A stretch of DNA of 64,000 bases from Mytilus galloprovincialis (taxonomy: Eukaryota; Mollusca; Bivalvia; Mytilida; Mytilidae). The DNA lies in assembly GCF_965363235.1 (NCBI RefSeq), contig NC_134843.1:94459795-94523794 (forward strand), given 5' to 3'. The position numbers and the translations under genes were made by a program. The notes under the pieces were generated by a model. The model did no database searches. It saw only the letters and a list, made by a program, of their open reading frames with translations, and was not told where the DNA came from. Positions 15,588-63,330 of this stretch are shown in pieces (the first letter of the stretch is position 1; each line of letters opens with the position of its first letter).

Positions 15588-15649
15588 TTGACAAGATTAT
15601 GGCTGCCCTGGTGCCTGTCCATGTCGATTTTAACATGTATCTGACAAAG
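15588..15649 (+). pseudogene. Locus A: orphan exon 3 of the Kazal-like peptide gene
   Basis: Aligned with exon 3 of locus D, this segment keeps the coding pattern D-Y-G-C-P-G-A-C-P-C-R-F then TAA (15631-15633), the following TAACATGTAT, and the donor-like AAAG|GTTAGT at 15649. The acceptor reads CAT instead of CAG and the second codon is a stop, so this exon is dead. No exon 1, 2 or 4 was found nearby. A Penelope-like tail is inserted about 70 bp downstream, and a LINE end and repeat tails occupy the expected upstream region. It is a decayed paralogue of loci B, C and D. Confidence 0.75.
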
Positions 15650-15717
15650 GTTAGTAGATATGTAACATAATTAAGTCTTAGAATTTTGATAAAGGATACA
15701 CAAAATTGTGAAAAAAA

Positions 15718-15822
15718 CGGGAATGTGTCAACCAAAGAGCAGAAAACAGACCAAAGCCTCCAAATGGTCTTCAACACAGAGAGAAACCCCCTGCACCCGG
15801 AGGCGGGCTTCATATGGCCCCT
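15718..15822 (-). repeat. Penelope-like 3' tail (type 1) fragment
   Basis: On this strand GGGGCCATATGAAG precedes the GCACCCGGAGG-complement, GAAGACC and GACACATTC blocks of the tail at 4750-4895. It lies in the intron of dead locus A. Confidence 0.6.
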
Positions 15823-15967
15823 TCACAGAACTATTTTAGAGGCTTTACTGCACACAGTCAGGCTAATTGATCCAATACAAAGGTGTTCAGTTTATTTTGT
15901 ACATAATTCATGTTTACTTTAAGTTATAAATTAGAACATAAATATATGTATAAAGTTATGTACACAT

Positions 15968-16034
15968 AAAATTGAGAATGGAAATGGGGAATGTGTCAAA
16001 GCGACAACAACCCAACCATAGAGCAGACAACAAC
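15968..16034 (-). repeat. Penelope-like 3' tail (type 1), terminal fragment
   Basis: Contains AAAATTGAGAATGGAAATGG and GTGTCAAAGCGACAACAACC, the reverse complement of the end of the tail at 4840-4895. Confidence 0.7.
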
Positions 16035-16039
16035 ATGTA

Positions 16040-16615
16040 TGTAAACATGTCCACGTGTATTTGTTTATAATGATTTTTTTTTTTATTCAACAATATATTG
16101 CTTGCTGTAAACAATTGACTTCACTAGTCCAGCATTCTAGTGAAGGGTATCTTTATTTTAAAATAATAACAAGAAATCAATGATTTCCCTTTGTGTAACA
16201 ATAATACCTTACAATTTATCTAAACTATATTATAAATATTTCATTTTCAACCGTAAATAAATAAGTATATATGAAATTCTAATTTATCAAAATGTATATC
16301 TAGTTTGTTTGGAAAGAAAAAGTTTCCGGAAATAATTCACACTTGTCGTTATCGCTTTTCTATTATTGTATTGATATCTCTTCCTGGTTTGGAACTTACC
16401 AGTTTTTATAGTGATTTATGATTAATATAAGCAATTCACAGGCATGTATGAATAAATATTATAATATATATGTGTATCAATTCTGAAAAAAATAGTATGT
16501 AAATATTTTTTTCTTTTCTTTAACGATAAAAAAACAGTGGATAACAAATACCGTTATCTCCACGCTTATCGGTGATAGGTAAATCAGTTCCGGATCTAGA
16601 ATTTTTATAGAATTA
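16040..16615. other. Non-coding gap
   Basis: A+T-rich sequence between a repeat tail and the LINE 3' end; nothing else recognised. Confidence 0.45.
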
Positions 16616-18337
16616 ACCTTTTTCTTTTCTTTTTTTTTTTGCTAGATTATACATTTTCATACAAAAAAAAATATTACAACAGTTTGACAACTTTATCAAG
16701 TAGACATTTATTCTTAGTATGTTTACTAGTTGTAGTTGCCTGCATTTTGTAGCTGTACATGAATTCTGTTTTAAATACAGAATATACATCTAAAGATTTT
16801 GTTTTCTGTTCAGACATATAATTTGCCTTATATATACAAAACATTATAATTGTGATCAAATAATTAATTTCATAGTATTGCTCATCATTTATTTTATAAC
16901 CCCATACTAAATTTTTTAATGTCAGAATATTATTATTAATATTCAGTTTTTCTAAGAGTATTTTTACTTTACTCAAGAAATTATCAAGAAAGTGACATTT
17001 TAGAAACATGTGATAATAATCCTCTGTGGTGTTGCAATAGTGACAATTTGAAATATCGCATATCTTCCGCTTTTTCAATAAAACTTTACAGGGTAAAATA
17101 AAGTGTAGCAATTTCCAACGGAACACTTTGTATTTGTTATCTTTTAAAAAATGATGAACAAACTTTAACATATTACACGAAAGACTCTTAATGTATTCAA
17201 GGTTAAGCATTGCCTTCCATTTGTAAAAACCAACAGGTATTTCAATTTCATTCTTAATTAATATATTATAAATTTTTCTGGTATCTACATTTTCTAAGTT
17301 TTCTTTTTTATTTCAATTATTATTAATATGTATTGTATAGAGCGTTTTTACTTTAGTTTTCTTTGAATTTTCCTGTTTTAAAATCTTTAACCATTCTCTT
17401 GGAAAAGCTTTCTTTAATTGGTAAAATTCTGACATCCAGTTACTTTTTGTTTTAAGCTTTTGTAAAATAAAATTTTCTTCTATATTACCATTTTCATCAA
17501 TGGTGTCATTGACAAAGATTATATTACTATTTATCCAGTTTTGGAATAAAAGGCATTTATTTTTTATCTTAATAAAATGATTTCCCAAAATAACTTCTTG
17601 ACGTATAGATCTAAAGTTTTTTGGCTGTTGTACTTTTTTGTTAGTTATCCATGCTTTAACAATGTTGAAATAAAATTTTGGCAGCTCCTTTAACTCTGGA
17701 ATAGAGTCAGTGTTATCAATATTCATGTGAAAGATAAGGAAATCTTTTCCAAATTTATTAAAATAAAAAAGTGGAATAATTTTCCAATTTTTTAGATCTC
17801 CATTAATTAACCTTTTGATCCACCCAATTTTGATAGATTCTATGTATTTATCTATGTTAATCATTTTTAAACCCCCATCTAGTTCACCAAAGCTAAATAC
17901 TGTGCGTTTAACCTTTTCTCTTTTGCTTTTCCATAAAAAATTATAGATAATTTTTTTTTAAATTTAACAATATATTCTTTTTCAATATGTGAAACAGATG
18001 CTAAAAAAGTAATGTTTGGTATAATCAATGATTTGATAACTGTTATTTTACCGATCATTGTTAAATGTCTTTTCTCCCAATTTTTGATAATCTTTTCAGA
18101 CTTTTCTATTTGTTTTTCTGCATTAAGTTTTTGACATTCATTTTTGTTACAACCGAAAAAAAATTCCTAAACATTTCACTGGTTTGTTTGTAAAGTTGAT
18201 GTTTTCATATTTTTCTTTGCAATGTTTGTGTTTTCCTAACCAAATGCTTTCTGTTTTTAATCTGTTTAATTTAAGCCCTGATAAAGTTCCAAAAATTTAA
18301 ATCATGTTTAATATTTTTGAAATGTCTTGTTTTGTTT

Positions 18338-19131
18338 TTAAAAAGTTTTGAAAAGTGTGGTGTCATCTGCGAGTTGACTGATTTTTAAAGAATGTGTTTT
18401 CCCATCTATTTTGATTTCAAATCCTTTAATATTTTTGTCTTGTTTTATTCTACATGCTAATAACTCAACAGCAGTAACAAAAATTAAAGCACTGCACGGA
18501 CATCCTTGTGTAATCCCTCGAAAAATGTTGAGGGGTTCAGATATCCACCCATTATTGATCACTGAGCTTTTAATATCTGTATACAAAGTTTTTATCCATT
18601 TGAGCATAGAATCTTGAAAGCCGAATTTTTTTGATGCTGAGAACATGAAATCCCATTCTAAAGAGTCAAAAGCTTTTGAAAAGTCTAAAAATAATAATGC
18701 TCCTTCTATGTTAAATTTTTCTGCATAATCAATTATATCCTGGATCTGTCTGATATTATAATCTATATATCTATTTGTTACATACCCATTTCGATCTTCA
18801 TGGATAATTTTTGGTAAGACATTTTTAATGCGCTGAGCTAATGAATATGCTATTTATTTTGTATCAACATTTAATGAAGTAATTGGTCTATAGTTATCTA
18901 AACTCAGTGGATCATTTTTTTATGGATAAGAGAGATAACTCCTAATTTCTGGGAAGTTGTTAACTCCTCTTTTTTATATGAAAAATTAAATGTGGATACA
19001 ATGAATCCTTTTAATTCTTCCCAAAATGTTCTATAAAAATCTACGCTTAAACCATCAATTCCAGGTGCTTTGTTCAATTTCATCTTAAATAGTGAATCTG
19101 TACATTCATCTATAGTTAATTTTCCTTCCAT
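18338..19131 (-). pseudogene. LINE reverse transcriptase core
   Basis: Two open stretches (19131-18904 and 18646-18338), with coding-like sequence between them, carry RT blocks: KAPGIDGLSVDFY, FLDFSKAFDSLEW, GITQGCPCSALIF and LADDTTLF. The A-D-D pair is the catalytic aspartate motif. Short breaks separate the pieces. Confidence 0.85.
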
Positions 19132-19438
19132 AATATCACTCTCTTGTGTTGTTAATTAATGATCAATATTTGTATCATTAATATAATCATTTATAAATTT
19201 TATATCTGGATTTGTACTTTTATAAATATCTTTATAAAATTCTGTCTCTAATTGTAAAATTTTGGATGAGTCAGTTTGTATCACTCCTTCTTTATCTCTT
19301 AGTGCAGATAGTTTTCCTTGTTTGTCTAGCTTTTTCCAAGCCTAAAACGAATTTCGTATTTTGTTCCCCTTCTTCTACCCATTGAATTCGTGACCTGATT
19401 TGAGCTCCTTTTGTTTTTATTTCATATATTTTCTTTAA

Positions 19439-20110
19439 TTAACTCTCATTATTAATTAACTCTTCATGAAAATGCTTTATTACCTCATCTTTACAATGTT
19501 TATTAATTTTTTGATTTAATTTTCTGATTTTATTTTCCAATACATGTATTTCACTTATGTTCTGTTTTGCTTTTCTTTTACAGTATTCAATGGTGCATTC
19601 TTTGACCTCGATTTTGAATAAGTCCCAATGGTGTCCAATATTTTTGGTAAGTTTTGGATTGTTTTTATATTTATGAATTAGGCCATTTATTATGTTTTTA
19701 TATTCAATATTATCCAAAATGCTGTTATTAATTTTAAAATATCCTTTCCCTTTCGATTGTGATCTCCCTTTCAACTTTAATGATATAGCTTGGTGGTCTG
19801 TGTGAGATATAAGTGCAGGTCTTATATCTGCTGAGTATATATGTGATCTTATTTCTGGGCATATAAGAAAGAAATCTATGCGAGAGGCTTCATTTATATT
19901 GTTTTTGCGCCTCCATGTAAATTGTGTCTTGTTACTATGTGTCTCTCTCAAAATGTCTATCAACTTTAGTGTTTTAATTAGATTTTTTAAACTGTTAACT
20001 GGTTTTTGTGTTTTTTTATTTGTGCTGTATTTTTTTCTGTCGATATTTGATAGAGTATCATTCATATCTCCACCAACAATTACCACCCTTAAGCTAATCT
20101 CTGATATCAT
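19439..20110 (-). pseudogene. LINE endonuclease C-terminal part and linker
   Basis: 224-codon open stretch with GGDMND (usual GGDFN), RRKNNINEASRIDFFLI and SHTDHQAI. These are the metal- and phosphate-binding motifs near the end of the endonuclease fold. A lysine-rich, coiled-coil-like linker follows before the RT. Confidence 0.85.
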
Positions 20111-20115
20111 ATCTT

Positions 20116-20499
20116 TTACTTTTTTGAAAAAAAAACATTTCTGTTTTTTGGTAAATTTGGAGCATAAATATTCACTAAAGTATAAATGCTATCTTTAATT
20201 TCTATATTGAGCAAAATTATTCTCCCTTCTTTATCTTGAAATTTGTCAATAAATGTATATTCTATTTGCTCATTAATATTAATTGACACCCCTCTTGATT
20301 GTGAATTACCATAGCTATTATATATGTCACCTTTGAATTCTTCATTCAAATTTTTCTCTATATTAACAGTGAAATGGCTTTCTTGTATAAATAAAATATT
20401 ACAATGTTGATGCTTTATCCACATATGAAGTCTTCGTCTTTTATCTTTTGATCCTAGTCCCTGACAATTCAATGAACATATATGTATAGTTTCACTCAT
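20116..20499 (-). pseudogene. LINE endonuclease N-terminal part
   Basis: 128-codon open stretch starting MSETIHICSLNCQGLG. The N-C-Q-G-L and I-Q-E-S motifs hold the catalytic Asn and Glu of the exonuclease/endonuclease/phosphatase fold. The domain continues in another frame after 20110. Confidence 0.85.
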
Positions 20500-20706
20500 T
20501 ATTTGTCATTTAATGAAAATACAATGTTTACCCAAATCTAATGTTAACAACATAATAATAATAAATGCAAAGTCAATATGTATTTTTGTAAATCTATATA
20601 TTATATACTTTCTACATACACTTGTTAATTTAATAAAAAAAAATATACCATTATGTAAATGATACATATACAATCTGTAAGTTATGCTTTTAATGTGTAT
20701 CTCATA

Positions 20707-21300
20707 TTATTGTGACTTTGTACTAATTATTGTTTTATTGTCTATTTTCAGTCGGTGTTCGACCTTGACTTTAATATTAGGTTGACCCAGATTCATCTGT
20801 GATGAATTTAAATGCCACATGAAGTTCACAATTGGTTTGATAGAAAATTTATGTGATAGTGGATGTGTAAAATTTCGTAATCCATGTGTTTTTGAAACTT
20901 GAAACCTGCACGTATTATTCATGGATTTACCTAGGAATACTAGAACTGTGTGAACACGTGTTACTATATATGGCCAATGGTTGGCTAAAAATAGAATGGG
21001 ACTTTCCCTTGCTATACATCTTGCACATAGCGAAGACTTGCGATACATACTATCACATTTGATAACAAATGCGTTTTCAGTGAATATTTTAATTATTTTC
21101 AGAAGGAAAAATAAGTATTGGAAGAAGTGATTAATTGTAAACTTCACATCAAGAATTATGCTTCTGCCAGAAAAAGCAGATTGTAGTGTGCTATTTATAG
21201 CATACCTATACCATATAGGAATATTTTCCTTTTTCACAACAAACATTTCTTTGACTTTCAATTTGTCATTTCTTTTTGAATGTATGCAATCTGTAATCAC
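20707..21300 (-). CDS. Unidentified 197-aa open frame, possibly LINE ORF1 region
   Basis: Open frame from the M at 21300, directly upstream of the LINE endonuclease on the same strand. Features visible are a KRNDKLKVKEM start, SAFSGRSIILDVKFTINHFF, a hydrophobic run (FFQYLFFLLKIIKIF), a C-x2-C pair (LCARC) and a basic C terminus. I do not recognise the family. Its length and place fit a damaged LINE ORF1 or an inserted host-like fragment. No intron or promoter signal was seen. Confidence 0.35.
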   Translation of the reverse strand: MITDCIHSKRNDKLKVKEMFVVKKENIPIWYRYAINSTLQSAFSGRSIILDVKFTINHFFQYLFFLLKIIKIFTENAFVIKCDSMYRKSSLCARCIARESPILFLANHWPYIVTRVHTVLVFLGKSMNNTCRFQVSKTHGLRNFTHPLSHKFSIKPIVNFMWHLNSSQMNLGQPNIKVKVEHRLKIDNKTIISTKSQ

Positions 21301-21437
21301 ATCACATTCATGTTTTTGGTTTTTTTTTCAATAATTATAATAAAAATAATAAAAATTATATACAATTTGTACATTTGTTTTTTAGATATTATAATTCATA
21401 AATTTTTGATACAACTTTAATATGGTACAGTCATGCA

Positions 21438-21656
21438 CTACTTTTTACTTGTCTTTTGTGCAGGACCTGTACGTTTGTGGTATTCATCTGTGGGGGTCGT
21501 TGCATTTCTTTTGTCGGTTTTATTTGTAGGCGTCTGATTTTCAGGGTGTACAGTACCAGGTGTGCCATGGAAGTATTGGCTAATACCTCCTTGTGGTGTA
21601 TTTTTTCTTGGGTTTCTTATCCCCATTTTCTTTTTAGGCCCTTTATTTTTTTTCAC
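21438..21656 (-). other. Basic 72-aa open frame upstream of the LINE
   Basis: Very basic, Pro/Thr/Lys-rich frame (KKNKGPKKKMGIRNPRKN, GTVHPENQTPTNKT). Such sequence is typical of ORF1 tails of L1-like LINEs and lies upstream on the same strand, but it has no diagnostic motif. Confidence 0.3.
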
Positions 21657-22214
21657 CTAGAGTATCTTCTGCTGTTGAGCTTTTCTTTTCTTTTTCACTA
21701 TCGTCACTGGTATTTATGTTTGTGGATGTTTGGTTTTGTAGCTGCTGTCTTTTATAAATTGAAATAATCAATTATGTTCACTTAAAAATACTACGAAAAC
21801 CTGAAAAGGAGGGAAAAAAAAAAAAATGTTGTTTAGCTTTTGTGTAAATGTATGTTTATCTCGTTTTGATTTAAGGGCGTATATATCTGTTACTCATTAA
21901 TACAACTATCTTTAGGGTATCACATACATTTAAATTCGGCATTCCTTGTGTTATCATCAAGTAGTTCATTTCATTGACATGTTTTTTTCTTTTACAAAGA
22001 TAGCTATTCATTTCATTTGTTGATAAAAAAAATGATGCATATAGTTATACTGTTTTGTAATTAAGTTTTTTTTATCATTATGGTGTGTTTTAAAGGGCTA
22101 ACCAACATTCTCTTTGTTCTTTTTAGATTAAGCTAGTTTCTTTCAATTATTTGTAGAACATATAGGGTTAGACTAATCAAACTTTTTTTCCTCACCTTTA
22201 GACATTTCTGAAAC

Positions 22215-22500
22215 AATAAATGTGACCTACCGAATAAGACAATTTACCGAATTTGTTATAACATAAGCAACACGACGGGTGCCACATGTGGGGCAGAATC
22301 TGCTTGTCCCTTCGGAGCACCTGAGACCACCCCTAGGTTTTGGTGGGGTTCCTGTTGCTTATTCTTTAGTTTTCTATGCTGTGCCATGTGTTCTATTGTT
22401 TGTCTGTTTGTTTTTCTTTCATTTTTAGCCAGGCGTTGTCAGTTTATTTTCGATTTATGAGTTTGACTCTCCCTCGGTATCTTTCGTCCCTCTTATATTT
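22215..22500 (+). repeat. Penelope-like 3' tail (type 2), solo
   Basis: Shares TGTGACCTACCGAAT, GCAACACGACGGGTGCCACA, GGAGCACCTGAGA, GTTGTCAGTTTATTTTCGAT and TATCTTTCGTCCCTC with the tail after the RT at 46779-47082. No RT sequence precedes it. Confidence 0.8.
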
Positions 22501-22986
22501 ATTAAAATAACTGTTATAAATAGTACTTAACATGAATATATAAATAAAAACTTCACATCTGATAAAATAACGATAACAGGAAAAAAGTCATGGGTGCGTC
22601 TTAACACTGTTAAGGCTTATTTAGTGCACCAAGGACTTATAATATGCCACTAAGGACTTGAAGGGGTACTTTTACATGTAAACAGATTTCATGTCATGGT
22701 AGAGATTGTTATTTTATGCATAAATTTTGATGTATCGAAAAAGAATCGCAGATAAATGAATAATTTAACCATGTTTAGCTTCAAGCTGTCTACTTTTAGG
22801 GTTCTTTAAACACCGCAAAGTTGTACAAGGACTTCAATGAAGCTTTATTAGAGCATAAAGGACATACACATGTGTATGTAATGGGAAATAAGTCATTTCA
22901 TACGATTTTTTATTTTTTACTAGCATTTAATCAGTTGAAAATTTACGAAACCGTGTTTAATATCGAAACGAATCAGCAATATTATG

Positions 22987-23240
22987 ATCACAGCATATTT
23001 TTTTTAAATTATCATAACAAATATTTTATTATACATTTGTATTATAAATTATTCAAAACATGAACATAAAAAGAACAATTCTTCGATTTTGCCCAAAATT
23101 ATTGAACCGTAAGACACGTGTCAAGTTACATAACTGATTACACTTTTATCTCAAAACAAATGAAACCTTAAGCATTTGCCTAAAAAAATAACCAAGACAA
23201 TAGATATGTTTATCATAAAAATATTTCGGGATTTATTATC
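22987..23240. repeat. Duplicated unit segment (partner 5350-5595)
   Basis: Colinear match described at 5350-5595. Here it lies about 1.4 kb upstream of the locus B exon 2 relic and runs directly into a minisatellite. Confidence 0.75.
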
Positions 23241-23520
23241 ACTACAAACTCCTCAGAGTCTGAACTCACCAGTTTTTTTTGCTCGACCAGTAAAATCGAG
23301 CACACATTTTACTCCACTAGTCTCGGCATTGTCTCGACTGTACTTAGCTGTAGGTCTCGACTTTACTTAATCAGTCTGATTCAGTACTTGATGATCTTTG
23401 TGTAGTCTGAAATGTTTTGACCAAGGCTCGACCTGTCTCGACCTGTCTTAACTAGTCTCGACTCAGTCTCAACCAGTCTCGACCTGTCTCGACTAGTCTT
23501 GACCTTCAAATTTAGTTTTG
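23240..23520. repeat. TCTCGAC-type minisatellite
   Basis: Irregular tandem units built on CAGTCTCGACCTGTCTCGAC with a period of about 10-20 bp, most regular at 23425-23510. It begins just after CACTACAAAC. The region 58620-58880 carries the same units in reverse orientation and ends in the matching GTTTGTAGTG, so the two arrays are inverted relatives. Confidence 0.8.
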
Positions 23521-23649
23521 ACTGGTGTGCATTAGCCCATCTAACTAAATTTAATATTGATCTTTCAAAATTCAAGCTTATTGCTGTGAAATGAAAGAAT
23601 TTAATTTTACAATAGGTAAAAATAAAAATGATCATACAAATTCAGATAG

Positions 23650-23800
23650 TATAAAAAAGAAGATGTGGTATGATTGCCAATGAGACAACTATCCACAAAA
23701 GGCCAAAATGACACAGAAATTAACAACTATAGGTCACCGTACGGCCTTCAACAATGAGCAAATCCCATACCGCATAGTCAGCATAGGCATCTTTAATTTT
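23650..23800 (-). repeat. 'CCCCGCCAAATT' family, 3' end, minus strand
   Basis: Starts AAGAAGATGTGGTATGATTG, then CCAATGAGACAACTATCCAC, CAACTATAGGTCACCGTACG and CATACCGCATAGTC: the reverse complement of the right half of 40340-40680. Confidence 0.75.
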
Positions 23801-24627: not shown

Positions 24628-26460
24628 ATGAATTCAAAAAGCTATTTTTCATTTTTAGAGAACGTTTCGTAGCATGTCAGTAAGTATGTTTCACAAAACA
24701 AACAATTCATCGATACCAGATATTTGGAAACAAATCATATATTTAGATTCTTTGAAAACAGCATTCGATGCAGAGTGTCTCTTTGAAATTTAAACAGATA
24801 TGTGAGACCATATTTTGGGCTTGCATTTTGTAAACCAAACTCATGAATCTTAAAAATTGAAATAGACATGAGAAATGTTCAAGATTTTTAATTTTACAAT
24901 ATTCATATTCATGATATTTAACAGTATAAATTGCATTACACAAGAAACGCATTGACAACGTTCTTCAGTGATGCTGGTTATCAAAATATTACTTTTTATG
25001 AATTATAAAGATTAACTGAAAGTACATCCGAATAGAAAATAAATCAAAGCTACTTACACATACTATTATTCAAATAATTTCAATAGTTTCACCACTTAAA
25101 ATATAGTTTATCAATATCCGTATTTTCTTGCCAATGTTGTAGAAATACAGTAACGGGATTGTAATTGTTACAGAGACTAACAGCAGAGGTATCCCGACCG
25201 CGTTATAGAAATAACCTAACACGAAATCATTTTTAAAATTACGTATGCTTCATTTGCTTTTTTCCGCTATGTTGAGGGCAAACTAGTAGACTTTTAATTG
25301 TTACCAAATACACTCATAAAGGTTAAAAACGAAAAATGGTCCGTAGAATACTTGTTCTTAAAACAAGAGTTCAGTAAAACAAGTAAAATATTTGTGTTTA
25401 ATGAAAGAAAGTGGTAGGCTGCTTTACAACATGACGTTTAAGAGAAATAGCATTCATTTTACGTAAGTGACTGAAATTGCACCATAGGAAAACTAACTGA
25501 TGTTTTATACTTTTTATTACAGTCTTCAAACTGTTGCTTGCACTGGTGCATGTCCATATCCGACATTTTAACATGTATCAGACATGAAGGGTAAATGGGT
25601 AAGTAGGAATGTTATAGAATTAAGTGGTAAAGGATATGTGAATGGACCTGATTAGCGATTCCATCTGGCAAACAGTATCAAACAGGAATCAAAACAAAGC
25701 AAAGTTGCTGAGCATAATACCCAGATGAAAAAAACAATAAAATCAACAAACAGAACTAAAGAAGCATGTTTTAAAAATAAGGCACAATTTAAACAAAACC
25801 ATTCTAACATCGAAAATCTTATTTTTATACTTCTCAGGAATCCTGGAAATGAAGCCACTTTTAGGAACCAATTAGTTTCAAATTAGAATGATTTATAAAT
25901 AAAGTATAATTCAGATCTTACAAATTCATTTAATCTGTAGGGTGCCAGTTTTTATATATACTATTTTTTTCAGATGTCCTCCAACTTCTTAAATGAAACC
26001 CAAATTGTCCTATGAAAACACATACATAACTCGCATCAAATTGTCTTATATTTGTTGATCTTTTTGATACTTATATTCAATCCTGCAATAAATTGGTCAT
26101 TATATTTTGATGCGTAATATGGTAAAGATGATTAATGCTGGTGTAATTAGTTTTATTGCAACCAGATTGAACAGACTCTCATTCATTACCGCAGAATAAA
26201 TAATGTTTACAGAATAAATTATCTTTCTTTATAACCATACAAAGGACATTATAATGTTCTTATTATAAGTCTTCTTTACAGAGAAACAAGTATAGCAGAG
26301 TAGTATTTACTTAAAGCCCTTTGTTTTTATCAAAAGGAATACAATATCCGAAACATGTACGTTTTGTATGTTATTTACTTCATATTCATTCTAATATTTC
26401 TTTTTCAGCACCACGTGGGACTGGAAATTATAATAAGATTCATTAAAATAAAAAAGAATT
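24628..26460 (+). pseudogene. Locus B: diverged Kazal-like peptide gene, exons 2-4
   Basis: Exon 3 (25523-25571 coding) is well preserved after TTATTACAG: L-Q-T-V-A-C-T-G-A-C-P-Y-P-T-F, then TAA. Exon 4 begins at 26409 (CACCACGTGGGACTGGAAAT), parallel to C and D. Upstream, 24628-24679 has an acceptor (TTTTTCAG), a GTAAGTATG donor and the correct phase for exon 2, with an end (GTTTCGTAGCATGTCA) resembling D. It encodes only 16 full codons with a single Cys, so the whole Kazal core is gone. No exon 1 was identified. It is probably a decaying paralogue, or less likely a peptide reshaped by internal loss. The downstream flank to about 29300 is colinear with the flank of C. Confidence 0.65.
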
Positions 26461-26914
26461 ACATTGTAATTTAGTCTGAATCATGTTTTGGGATTATTTG
26501 AACGAGTAAGATATGAGTACAAATTGTTTAAACTGTTAGTTATAGTTTATGTATATGCCTATATGAAAGTTTGTGTGACAACTCTCCAACATGCATTTTA
26601 CATTAGATAAGCATGAAATATACACGTTTACATCATCATTTACATTGATTTCATCTCAGATTTAGTCTCACGATTCTAGATACCTGTAATCTTTTGGCAT
26701 CACTTTTGTGATATGAAACCATCTTCTATTAACATCTACTTTCACTGTTCACAACGCACTGAACCCCCAGTTCAACTTGGCTGTACAAACATAGAATAAT
26801 TATGTCGAATGTGACAATACATCGTCGGTTTATTCTAAGGTAATACCCTTATCGTGATAATACCGGATTATGGTTGTATTTCTAAAAAATGGCGTAACTT
26901 ACAGATCAGACATT

Positions 26915-27164: not shown

Positions 27165-27177
27165 ACTCAATATCAAA

Positions 27178-38312: not shown

Positions 38313-40122
38313 ATGAAGTTCACATTGTTGATGCTGATATTTTTTGTCAAAGCAACAGGTATTAACTAATGAGAAAATCTATGTTAGATTGAGATGGGTA
38401 TATAGTGTGATTTGTAGATTGGTCGAACTTTATCAAATGGTAGCAACTGTATCAATAATTACTTTACGAAATAAGAGTACATGCAATAACACAATTAAAA
38501 TCTCAAAATAACATTTAATTACTAAATTGGTAAAATTTCGATACTAATTCAGACGTCATTATACTTATTCAGGAGTCGCAAAATGAAATATCATTCAATG
38601 CAAGACGCTTAAAGAAGATTAAGCATTCATTCAACTAGTTAATTACAAGCAAGATTTGAGTTCTAATATTGATTAATTCTTTAAAAAAGATTGCATAGAA
38701 CAATTCATCAGACGTCAAGATGATAATATCATTTTTCTGTGGTTACGTAATAAATCAGGCGTAGAAATACGGATTTGGCTAAACAAAAATCGTCACACTG
38801 TGAACATTTCTTAAAGTGATATGAAACCTCAAATTAAAATAAATGATGCATATATTTTTTAAAACAAAATGGATAAATTTCATGATTAAACTTATGTACA
38901 AATACATGTACTTTTTTCTGACGAAAATTCTTTAATTTGTCCCCATTTAGAAGAAGTTTCCTTTTTTTGATTGCTTACTTCCAGAAACAAATTCGCCGAT
39001 ATATTTTCCGTATGCATAGTGACCTTAGAGTGAACGATCTCTTTAAAATCCTGTGATCGCAATACGCATGAATCAGTCACTTAAATAAACAATCATCTTG
39101 TTGTACATGTTGAACACGTGCTCAATAACCATGGTTTTTGTTGATTGTTTGATAAGGTGACAATATATACAATTCGGAGTCAAAACACGGCATTTAATGA
39201 TTGCAATATTTGTTAAATCATAACAGACAGAGAGAAAAAAAAAATTGAAGATTATACGATGTATTTACGTGAAACATGATACAATCGTACACAGAAGACT
39301 AAGTTTATGACATATACATGCATTGGTTCAAGAATTGGATAAATATTATTTTTCATCAGTCACTCGTTTCATATGACTTTATATCCAGCCAAAACATCTT
39401 TTACAGTTATATCTTACACATATGAAAGCTTAAATGTCGACTTATATTCAATTTTGATTCAATGTGTTTTCTTTACGTTTGTATATGATTGAAATAATCT
39501 TTGTTTACCGATTGATAAAGACCATCGTTACAAATTAGGTTCATGTAAAAATAATTTCAGCCTGATATTACTGTTCGAGATCAAATGAGAAATATAAACT
39601 ATTTACTGAAAAATAAATTCTTTCTTTGCTTAAGCATTTCATTTTTTTTTATATTTTTTCAATTGTAGATAATGTCTTTTCCCAATGTCCTAACTGCCCA
39701 TGTTTCCCGACGAACCAATTGGTTTGTTCAACCTATGGTGTGACCTTTAACAATGCATGTTATATGCAATGCTAGTAAGTATTTTCTGAAAACAGAAATA
39801 TGTCAAATTAAATTAAATTATATAATAATATTGTAATATTACAAAAAATTAAAGTTAATTTTATGTGTAGGATTATTCAAAAGATATATATGTTCATTAC
39901 AATTCATTGATTACCAATGTTTTTGTATTTCGTAATAAACGATAGAAAATGAATTTTCGTTTTAAAGAAACCTCTTCTCAAGGTTTGAGGGGTAAAAGTG
40001 CATTTGTTCAATTAACAATACGTATGCAAAAACACTGAACATTCTCCTAGAAACTGTCCATGACCGACGTGATATCTTATACGTTTTAATACAGTTTGCA
40101 AACTTTTGCCTGCAATGGTTGA
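38313..40122 (+). CDS. Locus C: secreted Kazal-like cysteine-rich peptide (59 aa, three coding exons)
   Basis: Coding exons are 38313-38358, 39669-39774 and 40095-40122. Exon 1 encodes a signal peptide (MKFTLLMLIFFVKAT) and ends in phase 1 at ACAG|GTATTA. Exon 2, after TTGTAG, has cysteines at residues 22, 25, 27, 35, 46 and 50; V-C-S-T-Y-G-V-T-F-N-N-A-C shows the Kazal C-x10-C spacing with G-x-T-F-x-N. It ends at TA|GTAAGT. Exon 3, after TACAG, adds Y-L-Q-T-F-A-C-N-G and then TGA, 13 codons before the next stop (40159-40161) and earlier than in B or D, so the last C-P-C is lost. A non-coding exon starts near 42032. It is probably secreted; protease inhibition is a family-based guess. It may be a functional short form or an early pseudogene. 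Confidence 0.72.
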
Positions 40123-40339
40123 TGTCCATGTCCAACTCCACCTCCACCACCAACTGTGTAGTAGATAAAGGTTAGTTAAAATATTGAAGATTTAAATTTT
40201 CAGAATTGTGTTTGAGGATAGGAATATGATTACAGTAATCTATTTCAGATAGCGAACAGTCTCAAACGAAAATCAAAATAACAAATTACAGATTCACAAT
40301 TTTTTTTATAGTCCGTTCTTATGTGTTGTTCTGTCACAC

Positions 40340-42031: not shown

Positions 42032-42090
42032 CACCAAGTGAGACTGAAATATCAGAAAATCTAATTAAATTAAAAAAAATAACATTTAAA
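42032..42090 (+). other. Locus C exon 4 (3' UTR)
   Basis: After the acceptor TTTTTCAG, CACCAAGTGAGACTGAAAT matches locus D (63273) base for base over 18 positions and locus B (26409) with few changes. No reading frame continues, so it is untranslated. Conservation of a non-coding exon in three copies supports a real transcript structure. Confidence 0.7.
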
Positions 42091-44884: not shown

Positions 44885-46776
44885 GATCTTTCCTTAATCT
44901 TTCCTTTGCCAACAAAGGTATCGATGGCGTCAACTTAGGCAATATTCTTCATCCTATATTAGTTCAATCGAAAATACCTCCTTATTTCAAAGACCAGTCT
45001 GTACCAATCATTTCTTATACCTATACCAAACCTATTGCAACTAAAATTTTCAATTACAAACACGTTTTGCAGGATCTCGATATTGACGACTTCAAGTCTA
45101 AACTCCTGATTGCACTTGTGCTAGTTCAAAATTCACATATCCTGCTGGACACGTTATTATCGGTGACCTCAATATTGTTAATAACACTTCTTTACGAAAT
45201 GTGTTATCGAAAGGTCCAAAATATCGTGAGCCTAAATCCATCAATTGGAAATACAACTTTAAAATTTTGATGGATTCAGTTAAGGATTATGCCAGGCAAT
45301 GGGCTAAGCGTGAGAAGAAAGACGTAGACCCTCTTTCCGAATGTATTAAGGCTGTGAGGTCGTTGATACAAATCAGAATTAAGAAACTGAATGGGTCTAT
45401 CAATGCCCATGCTACGTCAATCTTTAAAGACCCACATGTTGCAAAACACCTATCCTATCTCCACGACAAATATGTTGTAAAACACATTACATTAACTGCT
45501 TGATAAACGAATTAGGTATTGACAATTCACTTGGAAACTCAACATATCACCTAACGACACTTACCAAAGAGGAAATCCAGGATAATCATAGGTCTGTTCT
45601 GTGTTCCTTTGGAATTTCAACCAAAGATGAAGAACTGGATCTTCCATCACTGTATTGGATACCTAAACTACATAAATGTCCTTACAAGCAACGGTATATT
45701 GCTGGGTCTTCCAAGTGCTCCACGAAACCTCTTCCTAAATTATTAACATCTTTTTTATCAGCAATCAAAGACGGTCTTCAAAGTTATTGTGAAACTGCCT
45801 ATTCTAGAGGGGGCGTGAATCAAATGTGGATACTTAACAATTCCAAAGATCTTTTAGAGTACATACAATCTAACACTCTTTCATCTTGTAACAGTATTAA
45901 AACATTTGACTTTTCTACTCTTTACACAAGTAATCCACATTCCAAACTAAGAGACAAATTAAAAGAGTTGGTATTGCTTTGCTTCGTAAAAAAGAATGGC
46001 CACTGTAGATACAAGTATCTTGTCTTAGGGAGGGATAAATCCTACTTTGTAAAGGATCACTCTGATTTAAACAAAAAATTCTCTGAAACTGATATTATCA
46101 AGATGCTTGATTTCTTCATTGACAATATATTTGTTACGTTTGGAGGACGTGTTTTTCAACAGACTGTCGGCATTCCAATGGGAACAAACTGTGTCCCTCT
46201 ACTTGCCGACTTGTTTCTTTATTATTATGAGGCTGACTTCATGCAGGAACTTCTTAAGAAGAAAAATAAGAAGTTAGCAATATCCTTTAACTCTACTTTC
46301 CGCTATATAGATGATGCTCTTTCACTAAATAATTCAAAATTTGGTGACTATGTGGAACAAATCTATCCCATAGATCTAGAGATAAAGGATACTACAGATA
46401 CAGTAAAGTCGGCCTCATATCTTGACTTACATCTAGAAATTGACAATAAGGATCGATTGAAAACAAAACTTTACGACAAAAGAGATGAGTTCAGCTTTCC
46501 AATTGTGAACTTTCCATTTCTAAGTAGCAACATTCCAGCAGCACCTGCATACGGGGTATATATCTCCCAATTGATACGATATTCCCGTGCTTGCGATTCC
46601 TATCATGATTTTCTTGATAGAGTGTTGCTGCTCACAAGGAAGCTATTAAACCAAGAGTTCCAAATGGTGAAGTTGAAATCATCCCTTCGTAAATTTTACG
46701 GACGCCGTCACGGGTTGGGTGACCGTTATGGAATAACCGTTTCACAAATGATATCGTATATGTTCCTTACGTCGTA
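44885..46776 (+). mobile_element. Penelope-like retroelement, 5'-truncated, RT region open
   Basis: The open RT frame 45500-46777 (425 aa) carries LPSLYWIPKLHKCPYKQRY (near residue 50), FDFSTLYTS (near 135), TVGIPMGTNCVPLLADLFL (near 222), the catalytic FRYIDDALSLN (near 270), LDLHLEI and the thumb-like AYGVYISQLIRYSRACDSY. Upstream coding text (44885-45480) holds LSFANKGI, a GHVII-type segment and LSKGPKYREPKSINW, parallel to the element at 1260-4300, but no nuclease region precedes it, so the copy is 5' truncated. It is younger than the first element, with few breaks. The motif set identifies a Penelope-like RT rather than an LTR or LINE enzyme. Confidence 0.88.
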
Positions 46777-46778
46777 AC

Positions 46779-53790: not shown

Positions 53791-53799
53791 TATAATAAA

Positions 53800-55840: not shown

Positions 55841-56042
55841 GGTTACTCATTTTATTTTTATTCTTTCTATATTTGAATTCTTTGATTAATTATTCCAAAA
55901 TGATTAATATTGTGAGAAGTATAATCATAACTGTAATCAATAAAATCATTATACTATGATTGTTATTATTTGATTTGACTTGCATATTTACCATAAAGTC
56001 AAGGCTAAAAACCTAATTGTCTCTTTGTTGAAAAAATAACAT

Positions 56043-56330
56043 TGACAAATATCATTATAGTAAACAAGTAAAACATGCTTTATTTCTTCGAATTCTTGAG
56101 AAAATACCACCTTGAATCAATCACATGTGTCTTATTTTTATCTTTTTCTTTTTTGCCAAAAGATAGTTTTTGCTTGGTTATATGGTTTCATTGTTATATA
56201 TCATCTAATTTTTTTATTTTTATATTCATAAATATAAATATATAAAGCGATGTTGTGTTGTTTTGTTTAACAGTTGAACCTACTGTAAATCGTTGACGGT
56301 AAGTCAGTATTTATGGTTAATAGTTTATAA
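56043..56330. repeat. Duplicated unit segment (partner 12385-12680)
   Basis: Colinear match described at 12385-12680; here it is 3.5 kb upstream of locus D. Confidence 0.65.
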
Positions 56331-56380
56331 CAGTTCATGGCAGCATAACACTCGACCAAAACTCCATGTACTTAGTATTG

Positions 56381-56577
56381 CATGTTGTTAGTCTTGTACT
56401 ATTTCTAATTTTAGTTTCTTGTGTACTATTTGGAATGTAGCTGAAGCTGAAGGACGCCTCCGGGGGCGGGAGTTTCTCACTGCATTGAAGACCTGTTGGT
56501 GACCTTCTGCTGTTGTCTGTTTTTTGGTCGGGTTGTTGTCTCTTTGACACATTCCCCATTTCCATTTTCAATTTTAT
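56381..56577 (+). repeat. Penelope-like 3' tail (type 1), solo
   Basis: GTTAGTCTTGTACTATTTCT, TTTCTTGTGTACTATTTGGA, GAAGGACGCCTCCGGGGGCG, CTGCATTGAAGACCTGTTGG, ending TTCCATTTTCAATTTTAT. Confidence 0.82.
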
Positions 56578-56579
56578 GG

Positions 56580-58180
56580 TGAAGTAATTATAATTGTGAA
56601 ACACTGCATACATTATTGCATCGAGTAGTTCTCAGTGTATTCCCTTCTCATTCCACTTGATTAAAGTTTTTTCTTGTTCCTGTTCTACCGTGTAAAAGCC
56701 GAATATTTTATCATTTTATGGATATTGTCGCGATGTATTCAGTTATTATTATTAATCAGCTGCTGCATTTATATTATCTTCAGTTTACATCAATTATATG
56801 AACACGATTTTGTTGATTATATACAGTTTTGAAGAAAATTGGACATCTTTAAATAATACATATAATAACACCATTACAAACTCAATTCCATTATAACATG
56901 TTCGAAATTGTTAACAGAAACACAAAATAACACTTTTGCAAACGAAATCCCACTTGAATGTTTTTCTTAGTGTCTATAAATAAACTAAAAGTTTATTATT
57001 TTTAGAAACTATATTTTGATAATACAAACCCACAAACAATACGTCTCTTTTTTACGTTAACCCATTTTTGTGACGGACTGTTTTTATTCTTATCATTTTG
57101 GATTGTGCATTTTAAAAAATAATTCAAAACAAATAAACGTACAAAAGAAGCGCAGTCTTGAAAAAAGTTAAAAACGCTTTGTTCCTATCTTTGAAATTTC
57201 AAAAATGTCCTTACTACATAATGAATAACACACATTATATCGTTTGCGGTTGCATCTTAAGCAACTTGCAATCTTATTATGACTTGTAAAAACTGATGGA
57301 TTTTTTTTTAAAGCAATTAAGTTAAGAGACCCATAGAGTTGTACAGTAACCTCTTTTTTCATTTATATAATAGTATTTTCCTACATTTGGGCATTAGTTA
57401 TCATTTTTTTTTGTTAATACAAGGATTTGATATAGAATATCATTTTTGTTATCTATTACTAGTATTCATATTTGTTTGCCGTGCATATTTAATTTCTTGA
57501 ATGGGTGAAAAAGCTCATGTACATGGATATTTGATTTCGTGAATTATACGATCAATTAAATTTGTGGTTTTCATATACCCATGAAATTTATGAAATATAG
57601 TATCAAATGAACATTAATACATCTACAGTATAATGTAGTCTAGACTAGTACCATATTTGTTAATTTTGATATCTAAGCAACCGCGCAGTGGGTCAATATA
57701 TATAAGAAGATGTCACTACAAACCAGTAACTTAATGTTCAAGGCCTTTAGAATTCACTAGATAAGTAATACATGAGTTTAAGAAAAAACAGGCCTTCTTT
57801 TTACCTGAGACCACATAAATTTATAAATTAATGCAAATTTGGAACTGTTCCTGTTTTAAAAGGTTAGCAAGAATTGTTATATGGAAGTTATATTATAATG
57901 ATTATATAAATTCACGGTTTAACAAAAAAATATCATTTTATAAATTTATTAAGTTGCTTTATATACTATTTTACTTGTATATATATTTTATTACAAAATA
58001 AAATTCACTGAATTTAATATTTACTTTACTTAACTAACACCATAAATCTATACTTGGCTCTAGTTTAAATTATGAAAATGTTTCAGTAACCATAAAATAT
58101 ATCTGAAAGATTTAAAAAATGCTGAATAAAATTGAAATTATTAGTCACAATTCAGTTTTGAGATAATTTGATCAGCTTGT
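56580..58180. other. Non-coding stretch
   Basis: A+T-rich; no gene or repeat family recognised. Confidence 0.45.
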
Positions 58181-58184
58181 CTTA

Positions 58185-58430
58185 TTTAAAATTGAGAATG
58201 GAAATGGAGAATGTGTCAAAGAGACAACAACCCGACCAAATAAAAAACAACAGCAGAGGGTCACCAACAGGTCTTCAATTTAGCGAGAAATTCCCGCACC
58301 CGGAGGCGTCCCTCAGCTGGCCCCTAAACAATTATATACTATTCCAGTGATAATGAACGCCATACTAATTTCCAAATTGTACACAAGAAACTAAAATTAA
58401 AATAATACAAGACTAATAAAGGCCAGAGGT
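58185..58430 (-). repeat. Penelope-like 3' tail (type 1), minus strand
   Basis: AAAATTGAGAATGGAAATGG, GTGTCAAAGAGACAACAACC, GGTCACCAACAGGTCTTCAA, TTCCCGCACCCGGAGGCGTC, CAGCTGGCCCCTAAACAA, then AATGAACGCCATACTAA. Confidence 0.85.
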
Positions 58431-58619
58431 TTTATATATTTGTAAGTGTTGACAAATATGGTGTTGAAGTTATTATATGTTTATTTTGAAGTTTTTGTTT
58501 AAATGCTAAAATGAATACCTTAAAAATGTCATATTTGTTGCTAATTTTTTCAGGGGAAAGAGCTGTTGTTATAAACAGTTCCTAAATTGATAAAATATAT
58601 AAGATAACAACAAATAGAT

Positions 58620-58880
58620 TAAGTTGGTAAAGACTTGGTCGAGTATGGTTCAGACTAGGTTGAGTATGGTTCAGACTAGGTCGAGTATGGTTCAGGCTAT
58701 GTCGAGCATGGTTCAGACGAATTTAAAATGCTTAAGTACAAGTTCAGACTATTAAGTACGGTTCAGACTAAAGCCGAGTATTATCAAGTAAATTTCAGAC
58801 CAATTCAGACTTGTCGAGTAAAAATCAGTACCGTCGAGTACAGATATAGGTCATTTCAGAGTTTTGCTGGTTTGTAGTGT
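58620..58880. repeat. GTCGAG/GGTTCAGACTA minisatellite
   Basis: Regular ~22-bp units (GGTCGAGTATGGTTCAGACT) at 58636-58715, then irregular units with GTCGAGTA and TTCAGAC up to 58860, followed by GTTTGTAGTG. Inverted relative of 23240-23520. Confidence 0.8.
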
Positions 58881-58884
58881 GTGG

Positions 58885-59200
58885 TATGAGTGTCAATGAT
58901 ACAACTCTCCATCCAAGTAACAATTTATAAAAGTAAACCATTATAAGTCAAGGCACGGTCTTCAACACCGAGCATTGGCTCACACCGAACAACAAGCTAT
59001 AAAGGGCCCAAAAACAATGTCCAGTGTAAAACCATTCAAACGGCAAAACCAACGGTCTAATCTATATATAAATAAGAAGCGAGAAACACTTATAAACCAC
59101 ATCAACAAAAAAAAACTACCGAACATCAGATTCCTTAATAAGGACAAGTGCAAACAATTGCAGCGGGTTTAAACGTTTTAATGATACCAAACATTCACCC
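58885..59200 (-). repeat. Dispersed mussel-type repeat
   Basis: GTGGTATGAGTGTCAATGAT, CAACTCTCCATCCAAGTAAC, GCACGGTCTTCAACACCGAG, CTCACACCGAACAACAAGCT, ACCATTCAAACGGCAAAACC and TTGCAGCGGGTTTAAACG. I recognise the family from memory. The 65-aa open frame at 58975-59172 is a by-product. Confidence 0.65.
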
Positions 59201-59229
59201 TTATCTGAAACAATAGTTCAACTCAACAC

Positions 59230-59800
59230 ATCACAACATAGAAAAACACACTATAAAATATCAATTGAAATAGCATTACTCAATCAAAAGACTTATTAAG
59301 ACAAATGGACAATAGATTCGATCTCTGATACAATGTAAAAACAAAAGAAATAAAATAAGGGATGATAGTTAAAGTAACGGCTGTGAAATGTGAAACAAAT
59401 TCAGAAAAAAAAGCTTGCACAAAAATCTGTCATTTGCAAGTTGTTACGCATACATGCATAGACCAAACGGAGAGGGGAAATATTTTTACAAAATAAATAG
59501 TTTTGATGTTCATAGTATGAAGAAGAGGACATTTCTTGTTATACCAAACACTTATCAAAGCTTGAATATAGACCAGCTTGAGTAAACATTAAATAACAAA
59601 AAAGCACTACAAAAAGTATTAATAGGTCAAATAAACAGAATAGTCGCATATATGAATGTGTAAATTCCAATTTGTAATATTCGTGTTTTCATGATCAGCA
59701 TTCAAACAATGTTTTTCAATCAAATATATTAATATTTTCACAATCTGCTTAACAGCATCGTCATCAGCAGCATAATTAATACTAACATAACTGGTCATGG
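59230..59800. other. Non-coding stretch before locus D
   Basis: No recognised feature; may hold distal promoter sequence of locus D. Confidence 0.4.
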
Positions 59801-59810
59801 CTGCAAGAAC

Positions 59811-59819
59811 TATATTTTA
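59811..59819 (+). promoter_or_regulatory. TATA-like box of locus D
   Basis: TATATTTTA, 58 bp before the start codon, placed like the box of locus C. Confidence 0.5.
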
Positions 59820-59868
59820 CGCTATTGTAGGAAGTACAGTTTTACTGAAGCGTTCAAAGCCAGATAAA

Positions 59869-61186
59869 ATGAAGTTCGCATTATTGATGTTGGTATTTCT
59901 TGCCATAGCCACAGGTATTACGTAATGAGTAGCTCACTGTCAGGTGCATTGCTTTCAACAGTATCGTGATCAATAAAGAATCATAATTACTAGATTATTA
60001 CAAGCGTTTAAATGAAACTCTACTCGTTTCACTTGCACAATAATTATCAATATATTACAACAAATATACGCTTTAATTCTTCTGTTAACTTTTAATGTAT
60101 GTATGTTTCTATGGTCATAGGTATCGCTAAAGAATTCAACAAGCGTTTCTGACATATTTTTTATAAAGTACGTTAATAAAGAGAGGTATGAAAATTCCAT
60201 TTATAAATCATTTGGAATAAAAGTCAAACAACATGGCTAAATTCAAAATAACGACTATTCAATATATGGTAAACCATCATTAGGTAAGATGCTACATTTT
60301 TCTAAGCAAATTTGCATTATCAAACAACTGGCCACTTTGAATCCTTATGATAATTACCAGCAATTTCCCAAGGGGTATAAAAACCAATGATATGATTTTT
60401 ACAACACTTGCTTTGAAACATTTTTCAATATGTGTATTCGTCAACTCAACTTTGAAAGACACGAAAAATGAAACATTAGAGGCCAATAGGCTATAGACCA
60501 CATTTAAGTGAAAAAAACATATGAAAACGGGCAATCAATGAACTACCAAAACTGTCTATGAAATTTGGCAAGAGAAAGATCAGCGTTGGGTACAGAAAAT
60601 ATTACATTTAACTGCATTTAACATTTAACGTCACACACAGCTAGTACACTTTTAGCATAGAAATCTAAAACAAAACGTACTTTTTGACGAATGACACACG
60701 TAAGAAAAAGAAAGGGAGCATGCCAAACAGAGTAGCTTATACTTTAATAATCATCATGCACAACATATGTTTCATTACTGGTTTGGTAAACTTCAACACT
60801 TTAATTCTTGTTTGGAACGTTAACCTCCAGATGTCCTGATATATGTATTGTTTTTATGATTAGTAAATAGTGTGATTTATAGATCTGTTTAACTTTTACA
60901 AGATGGAGCAAGTTAATGAATGATTGGTTTCCTAACTGAGGGTATATGTAATAACTATGAACTCTCAACATAACATTTCTTAAAGAGCATTTAAACTATG
61001 ATACTTCCGGAAAAATGAAATTAGATTTATTCAAAGCTGAGCACTTAACAGCTTTCTTTTTTATACACATATTTATATTTATTTTTATTTCATATACATT
61101 TCAATACTAACTATATTTAAAGATCTAATATTAACTTATTCCTAGATGAAGAATAAGTAGAACAAGTAATCAGACGTTAACATGAT

Positions 61187-61284
<98 letters not shown>

Positions 61285-62612
61285 GTAACATGACAAAATC
61301 AGCTTTAAAAAAAATGTCGCAATATAAACTTTATTTGCTACAGTTCAACATTACTTTTTCGTAAATCGAGCTCCAAAATATTTTGCAGTTATATCTTAAA
61401 AATACGAAAGCTTACAGATCGACCAATATATTTCAATTTCAATGCAATTCGATTTTTCACGGACATACATTGTATATGATTCACATAATCTTTGTAGTGT
61501 CGATTGACACGGACCTTCGTTAATAACAAATAAGTGTTATGTTACTTATGTTCTCAAAACTTAACTGTTCGAAATCAAATGAAAAAACACAACAATTCAC
61601 TGAAAAGAAAACTATTTGTCTGTTGTTTTAGAAGAATTCTAATGGTTATATTTTTCTTATTTAGATAACGTGTCTTCCCAAACTTGTCGTGACTGCAGAC
61701 ATTGTGATTTCACAACAAGACAATATGTTTGTTCAAGCTGTGGTGTGACTTACTATAATGAATGTTTGATGCATTGCTAGTAAGTATGACCTTCTAAAAA
61801 AGGATCTAAATGCAAGCAGATCATTATTTTATTGATATATTTTTTCCCTTAAACCGCTATTGACGGTTTAAACAAAACATTTAATCATATATAACTAAAA
61901 TCCAACTTATGAATATTAAACAATGAATTGGACATGAGAATTATTCAATGACACTTCCTTTTAAATTTCTCAGTAATAATGTTTAACAATTGTCATTCAC
62001 CAAAAGCACATTGATATTCTTCTTCAATGATGCTAGATACCGAAATAGTAATTACAGGATAAACGTTTAGTCAAACACAGAGGAAGAATAGGAGCTCTCT
62101 ATTAGAAATATATTACATAATTCAATTACTGCAATCGAATTGAAGCGCAATTGAACAAATCATTATTCTTTATTTAATACATAAAGCCAAAATGTTCGGA
62201 ATCAAAACTTAATACATACATTGTACTTGAAGGGCTGATATGACTGTATTTCAATCAAAGTAGAGCAGGTAAACTCATCATAGAAATTATCGTTTCGTAT
62301 TCAAAAGATTCAGCAACAACGCTCGAATAATAAAGTTTCAGAAGGTCTACGTACAAACTGACGTGCAGTTAAATTAATGCATGTTCTATTCCAATTGCAA
62401 TATTACGAGTAATTAAGTGTTGATTTAATTTGTATCATAAAATTATTAAAACAAGAAATCTAGAATCTACGAAAATACTTTATTTGCTCAATCACAATAT
62501 GTATGCTAAAACAGTATGATAACAGGAGTCGAAGTAATATTTTTTTACATTTTATTTCAGTGGTCAAAATTATGGTTGCGGGGGTGTATGTCCATGTCGC
62601 GGTTCACCTTAA
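59869..62612 (+). CDS. Locus D: secreted Kazal-like cysteine-rich peptide (70 aa, complete)
   Basis: Coding exons are 59869-59914, 61665-61779 and 62561-62612. Exon 1 is a signal peptide (MKFALLMLVFLAIAT). Exon 2 begins D-N-V-S-S-Q and carries cysteines at residues 23, 26, 29, 38, 41, 49 and 53. V-C-S-S-C-G-V-T-Y-Y-N-E-C has the Kazal C-x10-C spacing with the G-x-T-Y-x-N core, but a Cys replaces the usual Asp. Exon 3 adds Y-G-Q-N-Y-G-C-G-G-V-C-P-C-R-G-S-P with cysteines at 60, 64 and 66, then TAA. Junctions (ACAG|GTATTA, TTTAG|AT, TA|GTAAGT, TTTCAG|T) keep frame, and the donor after the stop leads to a 3' UTR exon. Ten cysteines predict a compact extracellular disulphide-rich peptide. Kazal proteins usually inhibit serine proteases, but the missing long C-terminal loop makes that uncertain. 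Confidence 0.8.
61191..61284. repeat. (TA)33(TG)14 microsatellite in locus D intron 1
   Basis: Uninterrupted TA repeats to 61257, then TG repeats to 61284. Likely highly polymorphic. Confidence 0.97.
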
Positions 62613-62825
62613 CATGTATGATACACAGGTTAGTACAAATGTTACAGAGTTAAGTTTTCAGAATAGTTGTAAAGGATAAATATATGGAATAAATGACCTA
62701 TTTCAGATGTCGAACCGTCCAAACCGGAAATCAAAATTACATTTACAGATGTATACTTTAAACAAACTATTTTGTTTTGGCAATGTTAAATAACATCGGA
62801 ACTTGATAGACAAATTAAAATAAAA

Positions 62826-62945
62826 ATGTGAAGATGTGGTATGATTTCCAATGAGACAACTGTTCACTTTAGTTAAAATAAACCAGATGTAAGCAAATAA
62901 AGGCAACCCTCAACAATTAATAACACCCATACACAAAATCTGAGA
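62826..62945 (-). repeat. 'CCCCGCCAAATT' family end in locus D intron 3
   Basis: AAGATGTGGTATGATTTCCA, ATGAGACAACTGTTCAC and GGCAACCCTCAACAATTAAT. Same place and direction as 40720-40935 in locus C. Confidence 0.65.
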
Positions 62946-63272
62946 CTACTCATAGTTACTGATAGCTTTTTCAAAGCCACTTAACGCTTATATAGAAATC
63001 ATGTGTCTAAGAATAATACATCAATAATGACACGAACCGGAAATATTATGGATTTAGAGACGTCGTTTACGATCAGAGAAAATATGACCATGTACAATGC
63101 CAAAATTTTGGTATCACTGGATTGTAATACCGTGCATGTGTATTTGGAGAATTTTATTTGTAATATATTGTTAATAATTTAAAGTAAACGACTGTCAAAA
63201 TAAAATAGATTATTCACGAAAGGTACAATGTTTTCTTGATATTGATATTTATATTTCACATTTCTTTTACAG

Positions 63273-63330
63273 CACCAAGTGAGACTGAAAATATAAATAA
63301 ATGAATTAAAATGTTAAAAAAATACTTTAT
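63273..63330 (+). other. Locus D exon 4 (3' UTR)
   Basis: CACCAAGTGAGACTGAAAAT after the acceptor TTTTACAG, with AATAAATGAATTAAA nearby as polyadenylation-like signal. Matches C and B. Confidence 0.7.

Follow-up and report, generated by a model that had tools for sequence, protein, structure and literature searches.

In the non-classical group II Kazal inhibitors, a Cys-x3-Cys helix motif is cross-linked by two disulfides (PMC3082530; this and the other papers named here are cited from the part of their text that was available). Kazal-type sequences are on record from mussels: 14 Mytibase clusters carry Kazal-like repeats (PMC3039611), Kazal inhibitors occur in the foot and digestive gland of Mytilisepta (PMC5549309), and a Kazal transcript of the digestive gland of Mytilus galloprovincialis was raised after diarrhetic shellfish poisoning (DSP) toxins (PMC6215123). 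Mussel CRP-I genes are likewise small, cysteine-rich and clustered, with many pseudogenes, a conserved signal and a variable mature part (PMC10138031). The present paper concerns a 64-kb stretch of M. galloprovincialis DNA (C6:94459795-94523794 in a 1.38-Gb genome; hereafter the window), in which an earlier note had recognised exons of four related loci, A, B, C and D. The explanation favoured here is that the window is very probably one part of a row of tandem Kazal genes with a single domain each, which would encode secreted protease inhibitors and have been shaped by birth-and-death evolution. None of the three mussel Kazal records above is linked to this array, and the primers of the PMC6215123 transcript, as given in the available text, were not found in the region scanned here. 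The kind of protein is well known, and this row of genes may be undescribed; the array was not met in the literature searched, and the word Kazal is absent from the available part of PMC7653742.

The gene array and its Kazal identity

With 100 kb added on each side of the window, 264 kb were scanned with exon models. These located 12 loci (U1, U2, A, B, C, D, E, F, G, H, I and J), all on the + strand and spread over ~200 kb, from C6:94423256 to about 94622800. The tandem family proposed from the window alone was thus borne out, and it continues past the window on both sides, so that the window is only a slice of it. The ends of the array are not fixed, as J lies close to the edge of the region read; among the matches listed in a genome search with U1, none fell on C6 outside that region. 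Exons 1 to 3, with GT/AG borders and intron phases 1 and 2, are present in nine loci (U1, U2, C, D, E, F, G, H and J), and the spliced frame is open in all of these except C, which carries a TGA. Exon 4 was located in eight of the 12 loci (B, C, D, E, G, H, I and J), while A, B and I are relics. The introns of some locus pairs still align in blocks at about 65-78 % identity, indicating that whole genes were duplicated. The exon 1 model gave two further + strand matches beyond the window end (window-relative 116889, E 0.012, and 111441, E 0.13), the first of which has no open signal-like frame, and nothing in a reversed-sequence control of the region fell below E = 0.29. With exons below 120 bp, an entire gene family is hidden from lists of open frames.

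Five spliced peptides out of nine, those of U1, F, G, H and J, score above the Pfam Kazal_1 cut-off, and exon 2 of G also passes Kazal_2 in a genome search (28.1 bits, cut-off 22.8). Against the sequences of the PDB, G alone matched ovomucoid (E 1.9e-6) and rhodniin (1.1e-5). A profile of eight members, built from an alignment in which three lacked exon 1 and E contained one typing error, matched rhodniin (3e-10), leech tryptase inhibitor C (6.7e-9) and infestin (2.6e-8) among solved proteins. Together, the Kazal_1 passes and the profile match to rhodniin and the leech tryptase inhibitor mark the array as a recognisable Kazal family. A Kazal core is characterised by C3-x10-C4 with Thr-aromatic-x-Asn ahead of C4. 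All nine peptides share an invariant VC-S, G, T, N and most Cys columns; C3-x10-C4, counted on homologous cysteines, is found in seven (U1, U2, C, D, E, F and G), the distance being 11 in H and C4 absent in J. The residue after the Thr is Phe or Tyr in seven peptides and His in U1 and H, and the C4-x3-C5 spacing is kept in all except H and J. The peptides are probably of the non-classical Kazal type, to which a further pair of cysteines has been added.

The earlier note had found the family Kazal-like, which stands, and had recognised no named family, which does not: the possibility of a new peptide family was rejected, as sibling genes outside the window pass the Kazal cut-off. It had also described the C-terminal module of D as unusual and its final loop as not long. 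The cysteine spacing of D, 2-2-8-2-7-3-6-3-1, is as it had claimed, but the module is not peculiar to D, since the whole eight-cysteine array (1-7-10-3-6-3-1) recurs in U1, in E and in 11 Kazal units of contig C10. In the leech inhibitor ten residues separate C5 and C6, and C-x6-C-x3-C of the array peptides gives the same distance. On that reading the final loop would be normal, and the extra pair would consist of the Cys after six residues and the last Cys.

Several observations weigh against the Kazal-inhibitor explanation. E misses the Kazal_1 cut-off by 0.3 bits (20.7 vs 21) and U2 by more (15.8 vs 21), while C lies under the Pfam cut-offs, its Kazal_2 score being 10.8 vs 22.8 bits. The search of the 70-aa D peptide with Kazal profiles (PF00050 and PF07648), a check named in the earlier note, came out negative: in Pfam, D alone gave no Kazal match with E of 10 or less, and rhodniin, the solved protein nearest to it, reached only E 0.0068. 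On present sequence evidence, the Kazal identity of D depends on its sibling genes and exon layout. In addition, some zinc-finger chains appear among the matches of the eight-member profile (best 2.1e-4), and the scores are therefore raised in part by richness in Cys.

The C-x2-C pairs of D resemble a metal site, and D could be a zinc-ribbon or knuckle-like protein rather than a Kazal peptide. Residues 14-44 match the Pfam Cas12f1-like TNB domain (25 bits, E 2.1e-5), perhaps through a gain of cysteines that mimics a metal site. This identity is very improbable and was dropped, because the score is under the curated cut-off of 26.3 and only one of eight members shows it. The start of D is moreover signal-like, both its exon layout and its sister C assign it to the Kazal genes of the array, and the TNB score is likely a composition effect of the two gained cysteines. 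C and D are sisters with support 95/86 in a small tree in which most other forks are poorly supported. D is a divergent 10-Cys member of the Kazal array. F also has 10 cysteines, with the extra ones at other places than in D, whereas E has nine, one of them near the possible end of the signal peptide. Seven are found in the damaged C and in J, which lacks Cys 4; in H, Cys 4 is displaced by one.

Loci within the window

When each exon of A, B, C or D was held out in turn from the nhmmer models, it was recovered in 11 of 11 cases, and no other match in the window fell below E = 0.29. The exon 3 that the earlier note had seen in all four loci was recovered in each of them (Table 1), and a repeat search alone already shows the common exon 3 at 15560, 25495, 40067 and 62533 and the common exon 4 at 26393, 42016 and 63257.

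Table 1 Exons of the four window loci (positions within the window; E values from the leave-one-out search)
Feature	Position	Strand	E value	Remarks
A lone exon 3	15588..15650 (end approximate)	+	1.7e-12	D-A match including flanks 4.4e-19
B remnant at exon 2 place	24659..24679	+		AG and GT flank 21 bases; no recognisable Kazal exon
B exon 3	25523..25590 (end approximate)	+	5e-13	
B exon 4	26409..26465 (end approximate)	+	2.7e-7	
C exon 1	38313..38358	+	8.4e-17	
C exon 2 (Kazal part)	39669..39774	+	8.8e-16	
C exon 3	40095..40170	+	3.3e-9	premature TGA 40120-40122
C exon 4	42032..42088 (end approximate)	+	8.5e-11	
D exon 1	59869..59914	+	1.4e-13	start codon, signal-like region MKFALLMLVFLAIAT, donor GT, phase 1
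D exon 2	61665..61779	+	4.9e-17	Kazal N-terminal part to C5; donor GTAAGT 2 bases past C5 codon (phase 2)
D exon 3	62561..62628	+	1.2e-15	C-terminal C-x6-C-x3-C-x-C; stop TAA 62610-62612
D exon 4, non-coding 3' exon	63273..63328 (end approximate)	+	1.9e-9	

Of the window loci, D is intact and A, B and C are damaged. The complete four-exon layout with phases 1 and 2, earlier assigned to both C and D, is indeed present in both, but C is truncated: its spliced frame stops at the exon 3 TGA after 59 aa, with the final C-P-C downstream of the stop. D splices to a peptide of 70 aa, introns 1 and 2 being GT/AG with phases 1 and 2. Exons 2 to 4 had been attributed to three loci. Exons 3 and 4 are present in B, C and D, but only the 21-base remnant marks the place of exon 2 in B; it was located by the similarity of the surrounding stretch to D (E 9e-4), and exon 2 models gave no significant match on it (one overlapping match, E 2.8, in one of two runs). 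In A the acceptor of exon 3 is lost, with no AG at the homologous place. A search of the genome with the D exon 3 DNA piece returned only itself, in a comparison where lack of matches is no measure of rarity. Graded decay, the heading under which these loci had been described, fits the four of them, but over the 264 kb the spliced frame is open in eight of the 12 loci.

Given the damage to A, B and C and the weak or absent match of D to the Kazal models that were applied, the four loci of the window might all be pseudogenes, with no product even from D. We consider this quite unlikely. D has an open frame, proper borders at introns 1 and 2 and an even number of cysteines, and it retains all eight cysteines of U2 even though alignable intron blocks of the two genes are only 65-78 % identical. 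In 20,000 neutral runs from U2, at 0.3 changes per site in a substitution-only model with one branch, all eight cysteines and a frame without stop were kept in 0.035 %; neutral simulations from U2 and from D make such retention unlikely at that divergence.

Between A exon 3 and locus B, broken LINE-like (long interspersed nuclear element) frames lie on the - strand at 16674-20499, with endonuclease-like and reverse-transcriptase-like translations as judged by eye. Frames resembling pieces of a reverse transcriptase, also by eye, lie on the + strand at 1826-3640 and 45500-46777; both contain GIPMGTNC and appear to be of one element type.

Constraint and proposed function

In the mature part, dN/dS (non-synonymous over synonymous divergence) could be defined for 27 of the 36 peptide pairs, the other nine being saturated, and dS was high in many of the remainder. 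In 26 of the 27 the ratio was below 1 (0.18-0.75), so constraint is the general rule. The sole pair above 1 was D and U2, at 1.83 (non-synonymous 0.56 vs synonymous 0.31), which is not significant (p = 0.14). Between these two genes the signal exon is 91 % identical and exon 2 only 66 %, no more alike than the intron blocks, which were chosen for alignability, so that the true intron divergence is higher. The contrast between signal and mature part in non-synonymous change is significant (p = 7e-6), and by itself shows only that constraint differs; for positive selection on D there is only a hint.

Building on the exons, splice sites, phases, Kazal homology, array and damage reported above, secretion, disulfides, inhibition, targets and a role in defence are proposed for the products. 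Each gene follows one plan: a signal exon, an exon with the Kazal reactive loop up to C5 and a short exon completing the domain, followed, at the loci where it was located, by a last exon that is non-coding. The signal-like exon 1 makes secretion plausible, with a predicted signal peptide of about 15-21 residues being removed. The mature peptide would fold as a non-classical group II Kazal domain, with its C4-x3-C5 helix, and an additional disulfide would tie the C-terminal tail. Its rigid reactive-site loop would enter the active site of a serine protease, the P1 residue (second after C2) setting the target. A secreted serine-protease inhibitor, with a reactive loop that differs among copies, is put forward as the likely product from the sequences, and the targets are plausibly microbial proteases. 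Birth-and-death evolution would explain why intact copies occur together with truncated ones and relics.

In the alignment, the residue at P1 is K in U1, T in U2, P in C, T in D, Q in E, A in F, S in G, A in H and R in J. Because the copies carry different P1 residues, we propose that the array is a set of inhibitors with different targets. The reactive loop of D and U2 is one residue longer than the usual seven, which makes P1 ambiguous in both; by strict count it is Pro in U2 and Phe in D. These observations also count in part against inhibition: D and U2, with the longer loop, and C, with Pro at P1, may not inhibit, and while the loop columns are variable (entropy 2.1-2.95), several columns elsewhere are as variable.

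It is possible, though rather less probable, that the Kazal-fold peptides are no longer inhibitory and have an antimicrobial or other defence role, in which the scaffold was kept and the surface became free to vary. The highly varied P1, Pro included, the 10 cysteines of D and F with the extra ones differently placed, and the conserved signal and variable mature part in D and U2, resembling published mussel CRP-I (PMC10138031), are all consistent with this, and a Kazal-type inhibitor of Hydra is cited as bactericidal in the available text of PMC3039611. The retention of C2-x7-C3 in seven copies (U1, C, E, F, G, H and J) speaks for inhibition instead, as do Lys at P1 in U1 and Arg in J. Lys or Arg at this position suits trypsin-like targets. 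A further suggestion is that the Kazal scaffold is undergoing adaptation to new targets, D and F having separately gained two cysteines each and D having the longer reactive loop; positive selection after duplication would then have given five-disulfide mini-proteins, with D unrecognised by the Pfam Kazal models, and the repertoire may vary between mussels. This we regard as unlikely.

The array is compact, and within it differences in the reactive loop can be compared directly with gains of cysteine and with the death of genes. Should it be expressed, it would supply a set of small, disulfide-rich candidate inhibitors.

Comparison with other Kazal loci and known systems

The genome contains at least 93 Kazal_1 and at least 135 Kazal_2 matches, many in dense clusters on C10, C2, C5 and C13. 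The Pfam myticin family, which we take to be a mussel family, has 17 matches (best 6.4e-24) and none in 14 control genomes, a weak control that includes at least one bacterium. These matches support a mussel origin and characterise the genome as Mytilus-like.

The Kazal loci of C10, near 4.71 Mb, have the same eight-cysteine array, which was found in 11 distinct units at two of the three C10 loci scanned, and U1 is 49 % identical to C10 units over 41 aa (E 4.8e-8). Some of their exons also share the phase-2 split after C5: in 10 of the 22 C10 Kazal rows listed a GT stands two bases past the C5 codon, as in C and D, and the other 12 mostly continue in open frame. The C10 loci differ in holding many Kazal units per open frame (365 codons), whereas the C6 array has one unit per gene. 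Eight C10 units form a group separate from the C6 genes (support 97/92), in a tree in which 10 of the 14 inner branches are poorly resolved. On C11, a stretch (G000:C11:8841435-8842485) matches U1 exon 2 at 56 % (E 5.5e-12), with a weak match ~0.8 kb further (E 0.35).

CRP-I is similar to the present array in being a cluster of small cysteine-rich genes with pseudogenes and in combining a conserved signal with a variable mature part. It differs in having a C-C-CC-C-C knottin array in its fourth exon and a dibasic propeptide site (PMC10138031), whereas here the Kazal domain is encoded across exons 2 and 3. Membership of CRP-I was rejected, as the pattern C(X3-6)C(X1-7)CC(X3-4)C(X3-5)C, taken from the available text of that paper, does not occur and none of the nine peptides contains CC.

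The eight-member profile matches the leech-derived tryptase inhibitor over positions 22-62 of 64, and rhodniin differs in having two domains where the array peptides have one. With the group II Kazal inhibitors the array shares the C-x-C ahead of the loop and, in seven of nine peptides, the C4-x3-C5 spacing; it departs from them in the extra cysteine pair at the C-terminal end and, in D and F, in two cysteines more.

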